Origin: Acidobacteriota bacterium
Lineage (GTDB): Bacteria > Acidobacteriota > Holophagae > Holophagales > Holophagaceae
Direction of reading: 5' to 3'
Length of the DNA stretch: 34,471 nucleotides
Assembly: GCA_021812805.1 (NCBI GenBank)
Contig: JAKAMQ010000010.1
Span: 1 to 34,471, forward strand
Shown: positions 2,617 through 8,009 of the stretch, piece by piece
Numbering within the stretch: position 1 is the stretch's first letter
Layout of the letters: every line of letters starts with the position of its first letter
Position numbers and translations under genes: made by a program
The notes under the pieces: generated by a model
What the model saw: the letters and a program-made list of their open reading frames with translations, nothing else
What the model was told of the DNA's origin: nothing
The model's database searches: none

Positions 2617-2660
2617 GGAACACCGATGAACACCGATAAAAGCTGATGGACACAGATAAA
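2617..2660 (+). repeat. 44-nt dispersed repeat, left copy
   Basis: The sequence starts GGAACACCGATGAACACC and continues through ATAAAAGCTGATG to CAGATAAA. It matches the reverse complement of 5016-5059 with 41 of 44 bases identical. The two copies bracket the low-GC cassette island. It consists of short units (ACACCGATGA / ACACAGATAA) typical of intergenic dispersed repeats. The rest of 2515-2863 holds a Lys/Arg-like purine-rich stretch, a hairpin, a promoter-like sequence and the cassette boundary, with no gene. Confidence 0.85.
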
Positions 2661-2686
2661 GCATGAAAATTGTGTCAATGACATGA

Positions 2687-2782
2687 GTCGCGAGGCAGGG
2701 ATTGGGATGGAAGTCATATCGACTCCGTGGCAGCATCGACACAGCTTTCCATCCCCAGGCTTTCCGCCTCGTTCATCGCGAC
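2687..2782. repeat. Long imperfect hairpin upstream of the cassette boundary
   Basis: GTCGCGA (2687-2693) pairs with TCGCGAC (2776-2782). GGC pairs with GCC further in, and GGGATGGAA (2704-2712) pairs perfectly with TTCCATCCC (2747-2755). The result is a bulged stem of nearly 100 nt. It resembles the folded form of an integron recombination site in general shape, but no RYYYAAC box was found at its left foot, so it is listed only as a structure. Confidence 0.45.
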
Positions 2783-2797
2783 CGATGACGGTGCGGC

Positions 2798-2827
2798 CTG
2801 ACATTCGACTCCTGTAGTTTGTCTAAT
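2798..2827 (+). promoter_or_regulatory. Candidate promoter at the cassette insertion boundary
   Basis: CTGACA (2798-2803), an 18-base spacer and TCTAAT (2822-2827) each match the sigma-70 consensus in 5 of 6 positions. Transcription would start at about the first bases of cassette 1, just after GTTAGGC. The position is like that of an integron cassette promoter (Pc). No expression evidence is available. Confidence 0.45.
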
Positions 2828-2839
2828 TCCTGGTTAGGC
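2821..2839 (+). other. Integron insertion boundary (attI-like relic or attC right end)
   Basis: GTCTAATTCCTGGTTAGGC ends in GTTAGGC (2833-2839), which fits the integron core GTTRRRY. The inverted GTCTAAT box beside it gives the paired-box layout of a simple recombination site. The protease cassette starts directly after it: the Shine-Dalgarno is only 13 bases further on. It could be the remains of an attI site or the right end of a lost attC. No RYYYAAC partner was found upstream. Confidence 0.5.
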
Positions 2840-2863
2840 GCACTCATCATCAAGGAGGTCCCA

Positions 2864-3841
2864 GTGCATCGCGACAAGTCCTTCAGTCGGTCTTTAATTC
2901 TTATAGTCTGCGCTTGGTTCACACTTCCGCTAATGCCTCAAAGCAAGTGGAAGTTAACGCCACAAGCTATCGCCGAAAAGTCCAGCAAGTCTATCGTCCA
3001 GATCACCAGTAAAAATTCATCCGGAGATGCTTTGGGCTTTGGTACTGGTTTTTTTGTAGAACCGAACAAGGTTGTAACTAATTTCCATGTAATAGACGGT
3101 GCGAGCTTTGTAACAATCAAAGTCTTGAGTAGTGGAAAAGTTTATGAGGTGACAACGGTAGATGGGCACTCAATTGAAAACGATTTGGCGATTCTACTGG
3201 TCGATGGGTTCGAAAAACCTCTTTCTATCACCGATGTCCTGCCCAGGGTGGGGGACACTGTCTATGTGAACGGCAATCCCAAAGGGTTGACCGGCACCTT
3301 CTCCTCTGGAATTGTCAGTGCAATTAGAGGAGAAGCCGACACCACAAGGATCCAAATCACAGCTCCGATTTCACCTGGAAGTAGTGGCAGCCCCGTAATG
3401 AATTCCAGGGGCGAAGTAATTGGAGTTGCTTCTTCGGGAGTGGTAAATGGGCAAAATCTAAATTTCGCTATCCCTTTCACGGTTGGTATTCACACGACTT
3501 CCGTACCCCTCGCGGACTTACCAACATCGAAACTTCGGCCAGCGCCTCTTCAGTCCTCAAACCCTGTGTATGCCAGAGACTTCAAATTCAACAACCAAGG
3601 AATTCCGACTTCCTTCTCAATAGTCAACAATACCTACGACCGAATCATGATGGGTGGTTATAAGGTAGTTTGGTACGACAAGAAAATGAACCGGCTCGGC
3701 TCTGAATTCATGTCCTGGATTCAGACCATTGAACCCCGCTCCACCTGGGAATGGGGGCAGTTTCCTCGGTCGAAAGCTGAACCCCTTCGAGGGCGGGCCT
3801 ATTTCGCAATCGAAGATATCCTTTATAAGGCAATCAAGTAG
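2864..3841 (+). CDS. Secreted trypsin-like serine protease (S1C/HtrA-type) without PDZ, cassette 1 cargo
   Basis: A 325-aa protein with a chymotrypsin-fold protease domain. The catalytic triad is visible: His75 in 'VVTNFHVID', Asp107 in 'ENDLAIL', and Ser174 in 'PGSSGSPV'. An N-terminal hydrophobic segment (SLILIVCAWFTLPL, residues 10-23) suggests export or a membrane anchor, so it should act outside the cytoplasm. DegP-type PDZ domains are absent. The last 110 residues (from about 'ARDFKFNNQGIP') form an unrecognised beta-rich domain. The GTG at 2864 is chosen because AAGGAGGT precedes it by 4-5 bases; the longer TTG start at 2819 would run through the recombination boundary. Base composition is clearly AT-richer than the rest of the window. 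The gene lies between GTTAGGC (2833) and a complete attC, as an integron gene cassette does. The substrate is unknown. Confidence 0.85.
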   Translation: MHRDKSFSRSLILIVCAWFTLPLMPQSKWKLTPQAIAEKSSKSIVQITSKNSSGDALGFGTGFFVEPNKVVTNFHVIDGASFVTIKVLSSGKVYEVTTVDGHSIENDLAILLVDGFEKPLSITDVLPRVGDTVYVNGNPKGLTGTFSSGIVSAIRGEADTTRIQITAPISPGSSGSPVMNSRGEVIGVASSGVVNGQNLNFAIPFTVGIHTTSVPLADLPTSKLRPAPLQSSNPVYARDFKFNNQGIPTSFSIVNNTYDRIMMGGYKVVWYDKKMNRLGSEFMSWIQTIEPRSTWEWGQFPRSKAEPLRGRAYFAIEDILYKAIK

Positions 3842-3853
3842 TCACTCGATTAT

Positions 3854-3882
3854 TTGACGATGTATTCGGATTTAGGTATATA
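3854..3882 (+). promoter_or_regulatory. Near-consensus promoter inside cassette 1, pointing at cassette 2
   Basis: TTGACG (3854-3859), a 17-base spacer and TATATA (3877-3882) make one of the best sigma-70-like promoters in the window. It lies 12 bases after the protease stop and upstream of attC1, so a transcript would cross attC1 and reach the cassette 2 gene. A tiny frame, MQNQACC* (3897-3920), follows with AAGGT six bases ahead of its ATG and could be a leader peptide. Confidence 0.55.
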
Positions 3883-3923
3883 AAGAAGGTGCCAGAATGC
3901 AAAACCAAGCATGCTGTTGATGC

Positions 3924-4045
3924 GCCTAACACTCCGCTCAACTCGGACTCCGCCTGCATTGTCTTCCGCTCTCTCAACTTCTCGCTTCCTCGGCTCCGTT
4001 CAGCGCCTCGGTGCATCCGGGGTCGGTCAGATTCATTCGTTAGGT
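3924..4045 (+). other. attC recombination site 1 (complete)
   Basis: The site begins with GCCTAAC (R'', fits RYYYAAC) at 3924-3930 and ends with GTTAGGT (R', fits GTTRRRY) at 4039-4045. The inner boxes CTCGGAC (L'') and GGTCGGT (L') are also visible. Between them GACTCCGCCTGCAT near the left pairs with GTGCATCCGGGGTC near the right, giving the extended hairpin of a folded attC. The expected strand exchange is between G4039 and T4040. The length of 122 bp is within the usual attC range. The left motif GCCTAAC.CT.CGCT.AACTCGGAC is shared with attC2. Confidence 0.85.
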
Positions 4046-4120
4046 ATCAGGTTATCACGATCACAATACTCACTATCACCTTTAGTCATTTACCAAAATT
4101 TCTACGACAAGGGAATAGAG

Positions 4121-4858
4121 ATGGAAAATATTTTCAATTCTCTCAAGACAAAACTTTTGCAAGCAGGGCTCACTGAGGCTGAAAATCATTTCTCTCAAGC
4201 CAAATCAGCTATAGAACGCAGCGAATGGGAGGCAGCAAATAGTCAAGTACGAGCTACATTAGAATCATTATTTAATAGTGTTGCTGCCATCTGCCTTAAA
4301 ACCCAAAAAAGGGGAGGAGTGGCTCGTGAGGAACTGGAGAGAGCTGGGATACTAAGGTTTCGAGAAGCCAGGCTTATTCAAGAATTTATGGCGTATGCCG
4401 GTGGTTCTGGTTCACATGCCGGCACCTCATCAGAAGATGAGGCAATGGGACAATGGCTAATCGGGGCCGGCATTGCGAACCAAAGTCTAAGGTTCCTGCC
4501 GAGCTTGGTTAAAGTTGAAGATGCCTTAAAAGCCAATTTACCTCCAGGCTCCAACGACCGTACCGCATCGGATAATGAATTAAAAACAAAATGCCCAACC
4601 TGTGGAACAATGCAATTTCTTTCTGAAGCCACAATTTCAAAAAAAGGAAGTGAGACAATATATACCTGTATCAATGGTTGCCAAGCTATTGTAATCGGGG
4701 GCGATAAAGAAAATCATCTCAAAAGAGGTCGCGGTTATCAGTCAGAAAATTATTTTATAAGAAATGCTGAAGACTTGTTTTTTCCACCTAGTGGCAATGC
4801 AATCGCGATACTTCTTCCGAAATGTAAACATGCGCTTATGCCTTCCTTCAAATTCTAA
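4121..4858 (+). CDS. Unrecognised helical plus zinc-ribbon protein, cassette 2 cargo
   Basis: A 245-aa soluble protein. Residues 1-135 are predicted from composition to be mostly helical (LTEAENHFSQAKSAIERSEWEAANSQVRATLESLFN...), and contain a 'GGSGSHAGTS' turn near residue 94. A short linker leads to a zinc ribbon with Cys158/Cys161 (CPTC) and Cys183/Cys187 (CINGC), then a charged tail. No signal peptide or membrane segment is seen. The ATG at 4121 is used because it lies inside the cassette with AAGGGA upstream; the 70-residue extension in the ORF track is only a translation of attC1. Codon use is AT-rich, unlike the chromosome around it. The helical part has the look of HEPN/Abi-like families, but no catalytic RxxxxH motif is present, so no function is assigned. 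Confidence 0.75.
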   Translation: MENIFNSLKTKLLQAGLTEAENHFSQAKSAIERSEWEAANSQVRATLESLFNSVAAICLKTQKRGGVAREELERAGILRFREARLIQEFMAYAGGSGSHAGTSSEDEAMGQWLIGAGIANQSLRFLPSLVKVEDALKANLPPGSNDRTASDNELKTKCPTCGTMQFLSEATISKKGSETIYTCINGCQAIVIGGDKENHLKRGRGYQSENYFIRNAEDLFFPPSGNAIAILLPKCKHALMPSFKF

Positions 4859-4896
4859 ATATTCGACTGAAGGCAATTCAATAAAAACTCGCACCT

Positions 4897-5006
4897 GCCT
4901 AACCCTGCGCTAAACTCGGACCCCGCCTGCATTGCCTTTCGTTCTCTCTCGGCATCTCGCTACCTCGGCTTCGCTCAGCGCCTCGATGTAGGTGGGGCCA
5001 TCCAGT
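4897..5006 (+). other. attC recombination site 2, right end missing
   Basis: GCCTAAC (4897-4903), CTCGGAC and the core CCCCGCCTGCATTG closely follow attC1, and the shared segments CTCGG and CAGCGCCTCG.TG continue the match. The right arm (GATGTAGGTGGGGCC) still pairs with the left arm. The expected terminal GTTRRRY box is absent: after CCAGTTTTTC the sequence turns into T-rich DNA and the 44-nt repeat. The site should therefore be unable to complete recombination. Confidence 0.8.
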
Positions 5007-5015
5007 TTTTCTTTT

Positions 5016-5059
5016 TTTATCGGTGTTCATCAGCTTTTATCTGTGTTCATCGGTGTTCC
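5016..5059 (-). repeat. 44-nt dispersed repeat, right copy (inverted)
   Basis: This is the inverted partner of 2617-2660, with 41 of 44 bases identical. It begins within about 10 bases of where attC2 loses similarity to attC1. T-rich GCTTTTAGCTTTT units (5059-5086) follow up to the dnaE2 stop. Nothing else is seen in 4859-5090. Confidence 0.85.
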
Positions 5060-5090
5060 GCTTTTAGCTTTTGCTTTTAGCTTTTAGTCC

Positions 5091-8009
5091 TCACCCCACC
5101 TCCAGCACCGCCAGTCCGTCCTGTCGTGTGCTGCGGCCGCGGACGGGGACGATGTCGCCGACGCGGTAGGGGCGCTGGCGGCGTTTGAGGACGGGGGGGA
5201 AGGCGACGGCTTCGGCGAGGCCGGTCTCGTCTTCGAAGGTGATGAACTGCATGCGCTCGCCTTGCTCGGTGGCCACGTCCTTGTCGGCCACCACCAGCGC
5301 CCAGAAGCGGAGGGCGCGCCCGGGCTTCGCAACGTCCGCCGCGCGGTCGGGGCCGCCACCCTTCCGCACGCGGGCGAGGGCGGCGGGGTGGAGTTCCAGG
5401 GTGAGGCCCATCGTCTCCAGTTCCAGGTCGGCGCGCTCGAAAAGATCGGTGGGCCTCGGGCGCACGCCGGCGGGCACGCCGCCCAGCCGCGCCCACATCA
5501 GGCGCGTGCGGTCGCCATCCGGGGCCCAGTGGTCGAAGGCCCCGGCGGCGCAGAGGGCCTCGGCGGTGGGCACGGAGAGGGCCGTGCGGCCCAGCAGGTC
5601 GTCCAGGTGCGCGAAGGGGCCGTGGCGCTCGCGTTCCTCCAGCAGCGCCTCCACCTCCGCCTGCCGGGCGCCCTTCACTTGCATGAGCCCCACGCGCAGG
5701 GCCTGCTCGCCCTCGGCGGTGAAGGGCCAGGCGGAGGCATTGGCATCGGGGCCCCGCACCACCAGCCGGTGGCGGCGGGCATCGCCCAGGTAGGCGATGG
5801 CGGGGTAGTAGCCGCCCTGGTTGGTGATGACGGAGGCGAAGAACACCGCCGGATGGTGGGCCTTCAGCCACGCGCTCTCGAAGCTCACCTGGGCGTAGCT
5901 GGCCGAGTGGGGCTTGCAGAAGGAGTAGCCCGTGAAGGTGCGGATCATGTCCCAGGCCTCGTCCACCGTGGCGGGCCGCACGCGGCGCTCGGCGCAGCCC
6001 CGGCGGAACCGCGCCTCGAAGAGGGGCAGCTTCGCCTCGCAGTCGGGCTTGCCCAGCAGCTTGCGGAGCTGGTCGGCGTCGTGGTGGCTCCAGCCCGCCA
6101 GGGCCACGCAGACCTTGATGACATCCTCCTGGTAGACCAGCACGCCGAAGCTGTCGGACAGCAGCTCGTTGAACACGGGATCGGAGGGCTCCCAGGCCTC
6201 CTCGCCCCGGCTGCGCTTCACGTAGCGGTCCACCCAGCGGTAGGCCGCCGGGCGGATGAGGCTGGAGTGGATCACCAGCGTCTCGAAGTCGCCCTTCTTC
6301 ACCCGCTGCTGGAGCTGGCGCGTGGCGGGGCTCTCCACGTAGAAGACGCCGATGCTGTCGCCGCGCGCCAGCAGATCCTGCGTGGCGGGATCCTCCCGCG
6401 AATGGGCGCCGGGATCGGCGGGCACGGCGTCGCCCAGGATCTCGTAGGCGTCGCGGATGACGGCCAGGCTGCGGTTCCCCAGCAGGTCAATCTTCACCAG
6501 GCCGTAGTTCTCCACGCCGTCCTTGTCCCAGGTGGTGGTGGACACGCCCTCCTTGGCGGGCGCGGGCTGGAAGGCTGCGTGTTCCCAGAAGGGGCCGGGC
6601 GTCACGACGGTGCCGCCGGGGTGCACGGAGAACTGGTGGAAGTGGCCCGTGAGCGCCGCGGCCTGGCGCAGGATCATGCCCCAGGCAGGGTTCTCCGCCG
6701 CGCGGTCCAGGCCACCTTCCCAGCCGCGCACGTACCGCGCCAGCTGCTTGAGCTCGCTGTCGGGCCGCCCGTGGGCCTGGGCCACGGCCCGCAGGGCGCC
6801 CTTGGGCTTGAAGAAGGCGTGGTTGGCCACCATGGCCACCCGATGGCGGCCGTAGCGCGCGAAGACCGACTGGATGACGGCGTCGCGCTCGTCCCAGGCG
6901 AAATCAATGTCCATGTCCGGCGGATCCCGGCGCTCCTTGGTGAGGAAGCGCTCGAACAGGAGGTTCGTGGCCACGGGATCCACGTTGCTGAGGCCCAGGG
7001 CGTAGCTCACCAGGGAGGCCGCGCCGCTGCCCCGTCCGCAGATGCGGGGTGTCGCGCCCTGGGCGGCCTGGACGATGTCCTGCACCAGCAGGAAGTAGCG
7101 GGCGAAGCCCTTGTAGGCGATGAGGTCCAGCTCCTGTTCCATGCGGGCCAGCACCGCGCCGTCCGCCTTCGGGAACCGCACTGCCACACCCGCCCGCACC
7201 CGCTCGCGCAGGAGGGCGTCCAGGTCCGCGCCCTCGCGGCCCAGGGGTTCGGGCAGCACCCAGCCGCCCCAGTGGAGGGACCAGCCGGCCACCTGCTCCA
7301 GCGCGGCGGCGGTGGCCTTCGCCACGGCGGGCTCGCCGAAGGGGAAGCGGGCCTCCCAGTCGGCGCGGGGCACGGCGGCGTCGGCCGGATCCCATAGGGC
7401 CTCGGTGCGGATCAGCGTGGCCTGCGCCGCGATGGCCCGCTTCAGCCGATGCATCTCCAGGCCCTCGGCCGTGCGGAAGCGCAGCACCTGGGGCGCCACC
7501 ACCGTCAAGCCCGTGGCCAGGGCTTTCCGGGCCTCCTGGGCCCGGCGGGGATGGCCCAGCAGGGCGCCCTGGAGGCCCTCCCGCAGGAGCGCGTCCAGGC
7601 CCGCGAGATCCTCCGCCAGCAGCACACAGCCTCCCGGTGGCTCGGGCTCCCCGAGGCCGGGGATCACGAGATCGGAGCGCGCCGCGTGGGCCTGGGCCGA
7701 CAGCAGGCGGTTTAGGGCCGCGTAGCCCGCATCGCTGACGGGCAGCGCACCGTAGCCGTGCCCGCGCCACGTGAACCGCGCCCCCAGGTGCAGGCGGAAG
7801 TCCGCCCAGTCCGGATCCGGCGGCAGGCCCTCCAGTTCCCGGGCCTGGTGGATCCACGCCAGCGCCTCCCGCAGCTTCGGGTAGCCCGCCACACCCTGGT
7901 CCCAGCAGACCAGGTCGCGGTAGCCCAGGGTGCGCGCCAGGCGCAGCAGCTGCTTCGCCGGGTAGACGCCTTCACCTGTGGAGAAATCGGAAATGCCGAG
8001 GGCGAACAT
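5091..8009 (-). CDS. dnaE2: Error-prone DNA polymerase III alpha-type subunit (DnaE2/ImuC)
   Basis: A 972-aa C-family polymerase, the likely translesion polymerase of an ImuB-DnaE2 mutasome. The catalytic aspartates are in PDMDIDF (Asp365/Asp367) with the third in 'VKIDLLGN'. The preceding 'CGRGSGAASLVSYALGLSNVDP' is diagnostic for the palm. The helix-hairpin-helix region and a C-terminal OB domain ('RFWALVVADKDV...GERMQFITFEDETG') follow. The N-terminal PHP domain looks degenerate: the usual HxHS is 'LGISDFS', and the usual TDH is 'CWDQ'. It is roughly 50-100 residues shorter than typical DnaE2. The ATG lies 6 bases after the imuB stop, with AAGGGGG upstream, so the two form an operon. imuA is not adjacent. 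Confidence 0.88.
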   Translation of the reverse strand: MFALGISDFSTGEGVYPAKQLLRLARTLGYRDLVCWDQGVAGYPKLREALAWIHQARELEGLPPDPDWADFRLHLGARFTWRGHGYGALPVSDAGYAALNRLLSAQAHAARSDLVIPGLGEPEPPGGCVLLAEDLAGLDALLREGLQGALLGHPRRAQEARKALATGLTVVAPQVLRFRTAEGLEMHRLKRAIAAQATLIRTEALWDPADAAVPRADWEARFPFGEPAVAKATAAALEQVAGWSLHWGGWVLPEPLGREGADLDALLRERVRAGVAVRFPKADGAVLARMEQELDLIAYKGFARYFLLVQDIVQAAQGATPRICGRGSGAASLVSYALGLSNVDPVATNLLFERFLTKERRDPPDMDIDFAWDERDAVIQSVFARYGRHRVAMVANHAFFKPKGALRAVAQAHGRPDSELKQLARYVRGWEGGLDRAAENPAWGMILRQAAALTGHFHQFSVHPGGTVVTPGPFWEHAAFQPAPAKEGVSTTTWDKDGVENYGLVKIDLLGNRSLAVIRDAYEILGDAVPADPGAHSREDPATQDLLARGDSIGVFYVESPATRQLQQRVKKGDFETLVIHSSLIRPAAYRWVDRYVKRSRGEEAWEPSDPVFNELLSDSFGVLVYQEDVIKVCVALAGWSHHDADQLRKLLGKPDCEAKLPLFEARFRRGCAERRVRPATVDEAWDMIRTFTGYSFCKPHSASYAQVSFESAWLKAHHPAVFFASVITNQGGYYPAIAYLGDARRHRLVVRGPDANASAWPFTAEGEQALRVGLMQVKGARQAEVEALLEERERHGPFAHLDDLLGRTALSVPTAEALCAAGAFDHWAPDGDRTRLMWARLGGVPAGVRPRPTDLFERADLELETMGLTLELHPAALARVRKGGGPDRAADVAKPGRALRFWALVVADKDVATEQGERMQFITFEDETGLAEAVAFPPVLKRRQRPYRVGDIVPVRGRSTRQDGLAVLEVG

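Follow-up and report, generated by a model that had tools for sequence, protein, structure and literature searches.

The window, which is the whole stretch of 34,471 nucleotides analyzed here (contig JAKAMQ010000010.1 of an Acidobacteriota bacterium), contains at positions 4121 to 4858 a gene for a protein of 245 amino acids; the reading frame of the original prediction is confirmed and runs on the plus strand from an ATG start codon. The gene is the second of two integron cassettes and the only one in its cassette, with no separate antitoxin gene beside it. The open reading frame is bounded by attC sites of the host type, a full one upstream and a truncated one downstream, and no GTTRRRY core was found at the downstream site (4897 to 4988). 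The coding sequence shows a GC content of 42%, compared to 66% for the window. The features of the region are compiled in Table 1.

Table 1. Features of the two-cassette region, with positions in the window
Feature	Position	Strand	Basis
Left inverted-repeat arm (partner 5007-5059), enclosing both cassettes	2617..2669	.	repeat search: 53 nt, 89% complementary
Cassette 1 ORF, trypsin-like serine protease with hydrophobic N terminus	2819..3841	+	Pfam Trypsin_2, 1.4e-25
GTTAGGC, 3' core of a recombination site, left boundary of the cassette region	2833..2839	+	left collinearity with G040 stops at 2839
Complete attC at the cassette 1/cassette 2 boundary, GCCTAAC (3924) to GTTAGGT (4039-4045)	3924..4045	+	sequence and recurrence
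Cassette 2 gene, 245 aa, ATG start, HEPN-like helical module and zinc module	4121..4858	+	ORF list; separate homologues for each half
HEPN-like module, residues 1-125	4121..4495	+	family alignments; hhalign against AbiJ HEPN
N40-x3-R44-x3-E48 in the long second helix	4238..4264	+	N and R in 14/14 family members, E in 13/14
GSHAGTS, G97-S103, with invariant H99, 5' of the last helix; HEPN active-site His position by alignment	4409..4429	+	family alignments
LVKVED linker, residues 129-134, identical in the Aminicenantes MAG TIR protein; fusion junction just before	4505..4522	+	alignment
Zinc module, residues 152-240, common to TIR proteins	4574..4840	+	sequence comparison
Zinc knuckle 1, CPTC (C158, C161)	4592..4603	+	sequence
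Zinc knuckle 2, CINGC (C183, C187)	4667..4681	+	sequence
attC 3' of the cassette 2 gene, 3' end truncated	4897..4988	+	sequence and repeat search
Right inverted-repeat arm (partner 2617-2669)	5007..5059	.	repeat search: 53 nt, 89% complementary

The integron setting

The cassette setting described in the original prediction is borne out by the two attC sites and by their relatives throughout the genus. Such relatives are present on further contigs of the window genome and in 42 of the 47 genomes of the genus, where the sites are highly similar to one another and occur many times per genome, with the per-genome numbers standing as "at least" counts. The attC assignment rests on sequence and recurrence because the folding energy of the sites is not better than that of shuffled sequences. 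An integron integrase above the curated cutoff is found in 29 of the 47 genomes. The same search of the window genome, in an assembly that is 88% complete, gave no match, and the cassette pair is therefore described as clustered attC sites for which no integrase has been seen. In the genome of a sister species, G040, collinearity with the window breaks at 2839 and returns at 5014. The different cassettes present there between the same flanks (L117:1857-4434) indicate that the locus is a cassette-exchange site. Among their products are a membrane protein with Sel1-like repeats and a protein assigned to HEPN_AbiU2 by Pfam (4e-24). Copies of the inverted repeat that encloses both cassettes in the window are also found in relatives, close to the equivalent site. 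Gene content suggests that the genus may be Geothrix, and in the literature searched the only paper naming Geothrix together with integrons concerns class 1 integrons in sewage.

The first cassette encodes a protease whose start codon is TTG as listed, with a GTG at 2864 as an alternative candidate. The hydrophobic N terminus suggests that this protease may be exported. It matches the PADLOC model RT-Protease_XI (6e-19), corresponding to the protease portion of an RT-protease. The independent promoter that the original prediction assumed for the second cassette is not recovered: a scan of positions 2640 to 5100 for sigma-70-type consensus sites gave none on the plus strand, where a nonconsensus promoter would escape the scan, and three on the minus strand, matching the 3.2 expected by chance.

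Two modules with separate relatives

No family of Pfam, PADLOC, NCBIfam or PHROGs covers the 245-amino-acid protein. The original remark that it could not be placed in a known family thus holds for these libraries but not for the protein as such, since each half has its own relatives and the protein is not an orphan. Judged from these separate relationships, it is a joining of two mobile modules. The Pfam and NCBIfam matches DUF6510, Zn_ribbon_Com, GpA_ATPase and ECs_2282 were dismissed, with E values of 0.003 to 0.15 below the cutoffs and a span restricted to the cysteine knuckle region. A housekeeping role was likewise dismissed, given the patchy distribution and the lack of a match to a housekeeping family. 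The full-length sequence has no match among the genome contigs in a single-protein search or among phages by tblastn, and the pairing of the two modules is seen only once, in a fragmented assembly of 242 contigs. Searches of the protein for TIR and for the N-terminal AbiJ domains (AbiJ_NTD1 to -5) gave no match; its N terminus belongs to the helical family, and the helical domain begins at residue 1. The junction of the modules is placed directly after this domain because the homology to TIR proteins starts at the LVKVED linker.

The AlphaFold2 (AF2) model is in line with the helical first half, the GGSGSHAGTS turn and the CPTC...CINGC zinc site read from the sequence originally. Six helices (residues 2 to 14, 18 to 32, 36 to 63, 67 to 74, 78 to 94 and 104 to 123) are predicted with low confidence (pLDDT of about 45 to 60), and the turn lies just ahead of the last one. 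The four cysteines are contained in a confidently predicted β-rich fold at residues 151 to 190 (pLDDT of about 76 to 86). Foldseek returned no significant match for the model, and the helical part is too poor for a fold comparison.

In a tblastn search of plasmids, residues 1 to 109 align with the C-terminal part of proteins of 250 to 283 amino acids from Rhizobium, Agrobacterium, Bradyrhizobium and Arthrobacter. Using one plasmid homologue as the query, the helical module is found in 34 plasmid records from Alphaproteobacteria, Gammaproteobacteria and Actinomycetota. These plasmid proteins, among them members from Rhizobium, Agrobacterium, Bradyrhizobium, Xanthomonas, Pantoea, Sulfitobacter and Streptomyces, carry the homologous domain with a GSHPGLS motif at the C terminus and show about 21 to 32% identity to the cassette protein. 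In contrast to the latter, they contain an N-terminal domain of their own of about 120 to 150 amino acids and no zinc module. An alignment of 14 members shows L12, H23, N40, R44, G97, H99 and G101 to be invariant, with E48 in 13 of the 14; all of these apart from L12 and E48 are listed as invariant features common to the GSHPGLS proteins and the cassette protein. R111 and L102, which are near-invariant in the other members, are replaced by Q and T in the cassette protein. A DNA-pattern scan of viral sequences for the GSHPGLS motif found nothing, and short-range matches of the helical-family profile in five genomes (G207, G209, G339, G364 and G387) were rejected as frame or repeat coincidences.

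The comparison with HEPN and Abi-like domains suggested in the original prediction gives a distant relationship. A profile of seven members of the helical family retrieves an AbiJ_NTD4 protein whose C terminus spans the domain, and the C termini of AbiJ proteins are HEPN domains (Anantharaman et al. 2013, PMC3710099). In hhalign, the seven-sequence profile matches three AbiJ C termini over 118 columns with a probability of 86.9% and a score of 39.4, compared to a maximum score of 18.9 and at most 2.3% among 60 column shuffles and a score of 12.3 for the reversed alignment; a wider profile of 14 sequences gives 60% and an E value of 9e-5. The length and the predicted helix pattern fit a four-helix bundle of about 100 to 120 residues, in a model with a pLDDT of about 55 and no Foldseek match, and hmmscan of the family members against the Pfam HEPN models gave no match even at an E value of 10. 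The module and the AbiJ-type domain share their length, a histidine before the last helix and a glutamate in the long helix. The cassette protein differs from AbiJ in the N-terminal position of the HEPN-like domain ahead of the zinc module and in the absence of an AbiJ_NTD, of the arginine of the HEPN hallmark Rx4-6H and of a Pfam match. This arginine is not conserved among the 14 members, with an arginine at the right spacing in only a few, e.g., in Rhizobium, and the invariant R44 offers an alternative. The 2013 survey accepts HEPN families that keep the histidine and lose the arginine and allows alternative active sites, e.g., in Parep1/8 (PMC3710099). The missing arginine therefore bars the term canonical HEPN RNase but not HEPN-like. 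On profile and alignment evidence, the helical module is thus regarded as a distant relative of the AbiJ-type HEPN domains and is classed as HEPN-like, not as a canonical HEPN RNase, since H99 is invariant and the hallmark arginine is not.

The plasmid homologues of the helical module sit in a defense-island setting, so that the refuting case named in the original prediction, in which homologues would be absent from all cassettes and defense islands, does not apply. Neighbors scored by PADLOC include PD-T7-5, Lit, HamA/HamB (Hachiman), QatC, RT_III-A, PDC-S73 and AbiEi/AbiEii. The PD-T7-5 gene (1e-128 to 1e-133) begins 74 nucleotides downstream of the homologue. In Sulfitobacter, the coding regions of the homologue and of a DNA methyltransferase overlap, with an ATPase gene coming next after the homologue, and in Streptomyces canus and Sphingobium the annotation shows no recognized defense neighbor. 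Two arrangements are recorded in addition. The tightly packed run of DNA methyltransferase, GSHPGLS-domain protein, small open reading frame and ATPase on the Sulfitobacter plasmid (L132:2795-8041) may be an unnamed defense operon. A conserved block on rhizobial plasmids (L004:3697-9671; also L003, L005 and L007) comprises an XRE/IrrE-peptidase regulator, a QatC-like protein, unknown proteins, the GSHPGLS-domain protein and PD-T7-5, and is bordered by variable defense genes beside a dinB gene.

A zinc module shared with TIR proteins

The linker and zinc domain (residues ∼127 to 245) show 37 to 47% identity to the C termini of TIR proteins from five other bacteria and two viral contigs; against the TIR protein of an Aminicenantes metagenome-assembled genome (MAG), residues 126 to 242 give 42% identity and an E value of 4e-21. 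The bacterial relatives were found with a degenerate DNA pattern for YTCxNGCQ, which was run over 84,980 species genomes and gave 28 matches. Five of these, in Nitrosomonas communis, Microbulbifer sp. HZ11, Hymenobacter coccineus, a gammaproteobacterial MAG and the "Candidatus Aminicenantes" MAG, are true relatives, all with a TIR domain and the zinc module; the other 23 are chance matches. The module is characterized by invariant Q, R and N residues in addition to the four cysteines. The cassette protein carries the series of motifs that defines the group, CPxC...YTCxNGCQ...GRG...RN, together with the linker and the C-terminal position of the zinc module. It further resembles the TIR proteins in the order of effector and zinc module and in length (245 versus about 262 amino acids) but differs in the effector, which is HEPN-like instead of TIR. 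Every other copy of the zinc module found is joined to a TIR domain, and the HEPN-like domain occurs with it only in the 245-amino-acid protein. The TIR halves match Pfam TIR_2 at 1e-17 to 1e-19, retain the glutamate of WTxHE and match solved TIR structures (AbTIR, BtTir and TcpB), NADases among them.

On the first viral contig, the same gene as in Nitrosomonas lies beside terminase, portal and head genes; on the second, the TIR-zinc gene is accompanied by a phage integrase and a tail-fibre-like gene. The first of the two contigs is the DNA of the same Nitrosomonas prophage. On viral contig L128, the TIR-zinc gene (1585-2379) lies 1.7 kb from a gene recognized by eye as trypsin-like protease-like (4089-5033); a trypsin-like protease cassette likewise lies upstream of the HEPN-zinc gene in the window, a parallel that is possibly coincidental. 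No match was obtained for the zinc half alone against plasmids by tblastn, in viral scans with two alignments (A2 and A5) or with A6, an alignment of three synthetic rows built only to steer the choice of pattern, or for the zinc module in a profile search of the PDB. Matches of profile A12 in G212, G218 and G237 were rejected as frame or repeat coincidences, and a resemblance of the zinc module to the C-terminal domain of RIG-I is not claimed, as the several Foldseek matches to RIG-I/MDA5 are nonsignificant, with probabilities of 0.02 to 0.08.

Proposed function and relation to known systems

The best explanation, which is favored with modest confidence, is a one-gene antiphage protein of the abortive-infection type with the zinc module as the sensor or regulator and the helical module as the probable RNase effector. 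Here, the C-terminal part, consisting of the linker helix and the CPTC...CINGC β-domain, would sense or regulate, and the N-terminal HEPN-like bundle would act as the effector, most likely as an RNase whose site would combine H99 with the invariant N40 and R44 and with E48, substituting for the arginine of the canonical Rx4-6H motif. A ligand derived from the phage or from stress, once bound by the zinc module during infection, would lead this module to release or oligomerize the helical module, which would halt growth through RNA damage. In the other bacteria found, the same zinc module follows a TIR NADase-type effector. We infer the sensing half, the RNase activity, the ligand and the protection alike: the conserved half would sense, the exchanged half would kill and the outcome would be abortive infection, although the roles of sensor and effector could be reversed. 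A self-contained sensor-effector is likelier than a toxin-antitoxin pair because the cassette holds no second gene. The defense role raised in the original prediction gains support from the TIR-fused zinc module, the kinship with AbiJ-type HEPN domains, the occurrence of homologues in defense islands or prophages and the AbiU2-type HEPN gene in the sister species; its argument from a promoter does not stand.

The activity of the helical module could be weak or lost because the hallmark arginine is not conserved in the family and R111 and L102 are replaced in this protein. An inactive HEPN-like or other bundle that binds RNA or a partner, serving as a defense adaptor or requiring a second gene elsewhere, would account for these losses, and HEPN domains without conserved polar residues are likely nucleic acid binders (PMC3710099). 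This alternative is rather unlikely, though it deserves consideration: H23, N40, R44, E48 and H99 are kept, alternative active sites are allowed for families lacking the arginine, the cassette holds a single gene, and in the sister architecture the zinc module has a TIR NADase-type enzyme as its partner.

Integron cassettes often hold toxin-antitoxin and stress genes. A toxin or regulator responding to stress or a ligand without being specific for phages, e.g., in array stability or persistence, would be in keeping with this, and the invariant Q, R and N residues of the zinc module beyond the cysteines would suit a small ligand, so that metal, redox or nucleotide state might be sensed. The missing antitoxin gene and the prophage and defense-island settings of both modules make such a role improbable. 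Least probable of all is a decaying or chimeric gene without present function, a recombination product lying silent in an array from which the integrase and the outer attC ends are gone. The integrase search without a match above the cutoff, the incomplete outer recombination sites, the two replaced near-invariant residues and the promoter scan without a recognized site would agree with decay, but the frame of 245 codons is full-length with its cysteines and core residues intact, the assembly is incomplete and integrases occur in the majority of the sampled genus, and the different cassettes in the sister species indicate that the site is or was active.

If the abortive-infection reading of the cassette protein is true, evolution defines a new sensor-type module that is retained while its effector is swapped, and the ligand of the zinc module becomes a direct experimental target. 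A HEPN-like family without the catalytic arginine, carried on proteobacterial and actinobacterial plasmids and missing from Pfam, would be added as well. A broader proposal, held only tentatively and with the balance leaning against it, is that the linker and zinc module form a mobile phage-sensing unit fitted with either a TIR NADase or a noncanonical HEPN-like RNase, with integron cassettes as one route of spread.

In the libraries searched, no name is given to the zinc module, to the helical family or to the combination of the two, and none of them was found in a targeted literature search that had most subscription papers outside its reach. That TIR and HEPN can replace one another downstream of common domains is known from AbiJ-NTD2, -3 and -5, whose fusion to TIR as an alternative effector follows the same swapping theme as the 245-amino-acid protein (PMC3710099). 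Integrons are known as stores of defense genes in Vibrio and among mobile integrons (Darracq 2025, Kieffer 2025 and Getz 2025, as cited in PMC12409362). The gene described here resembles those cassettes, as far as PMC12409362 presents them, in being a putative defense gene in an integron; it differs in its Acidobacteriota host, to which the concept of the integron as a defense store would be widened from Vibrio, and in encoding a protein outside the named systems of the libraries searched. The new element is the pairing of a HEPN-like domain with the zinc module, within the known theme of effector swapping.
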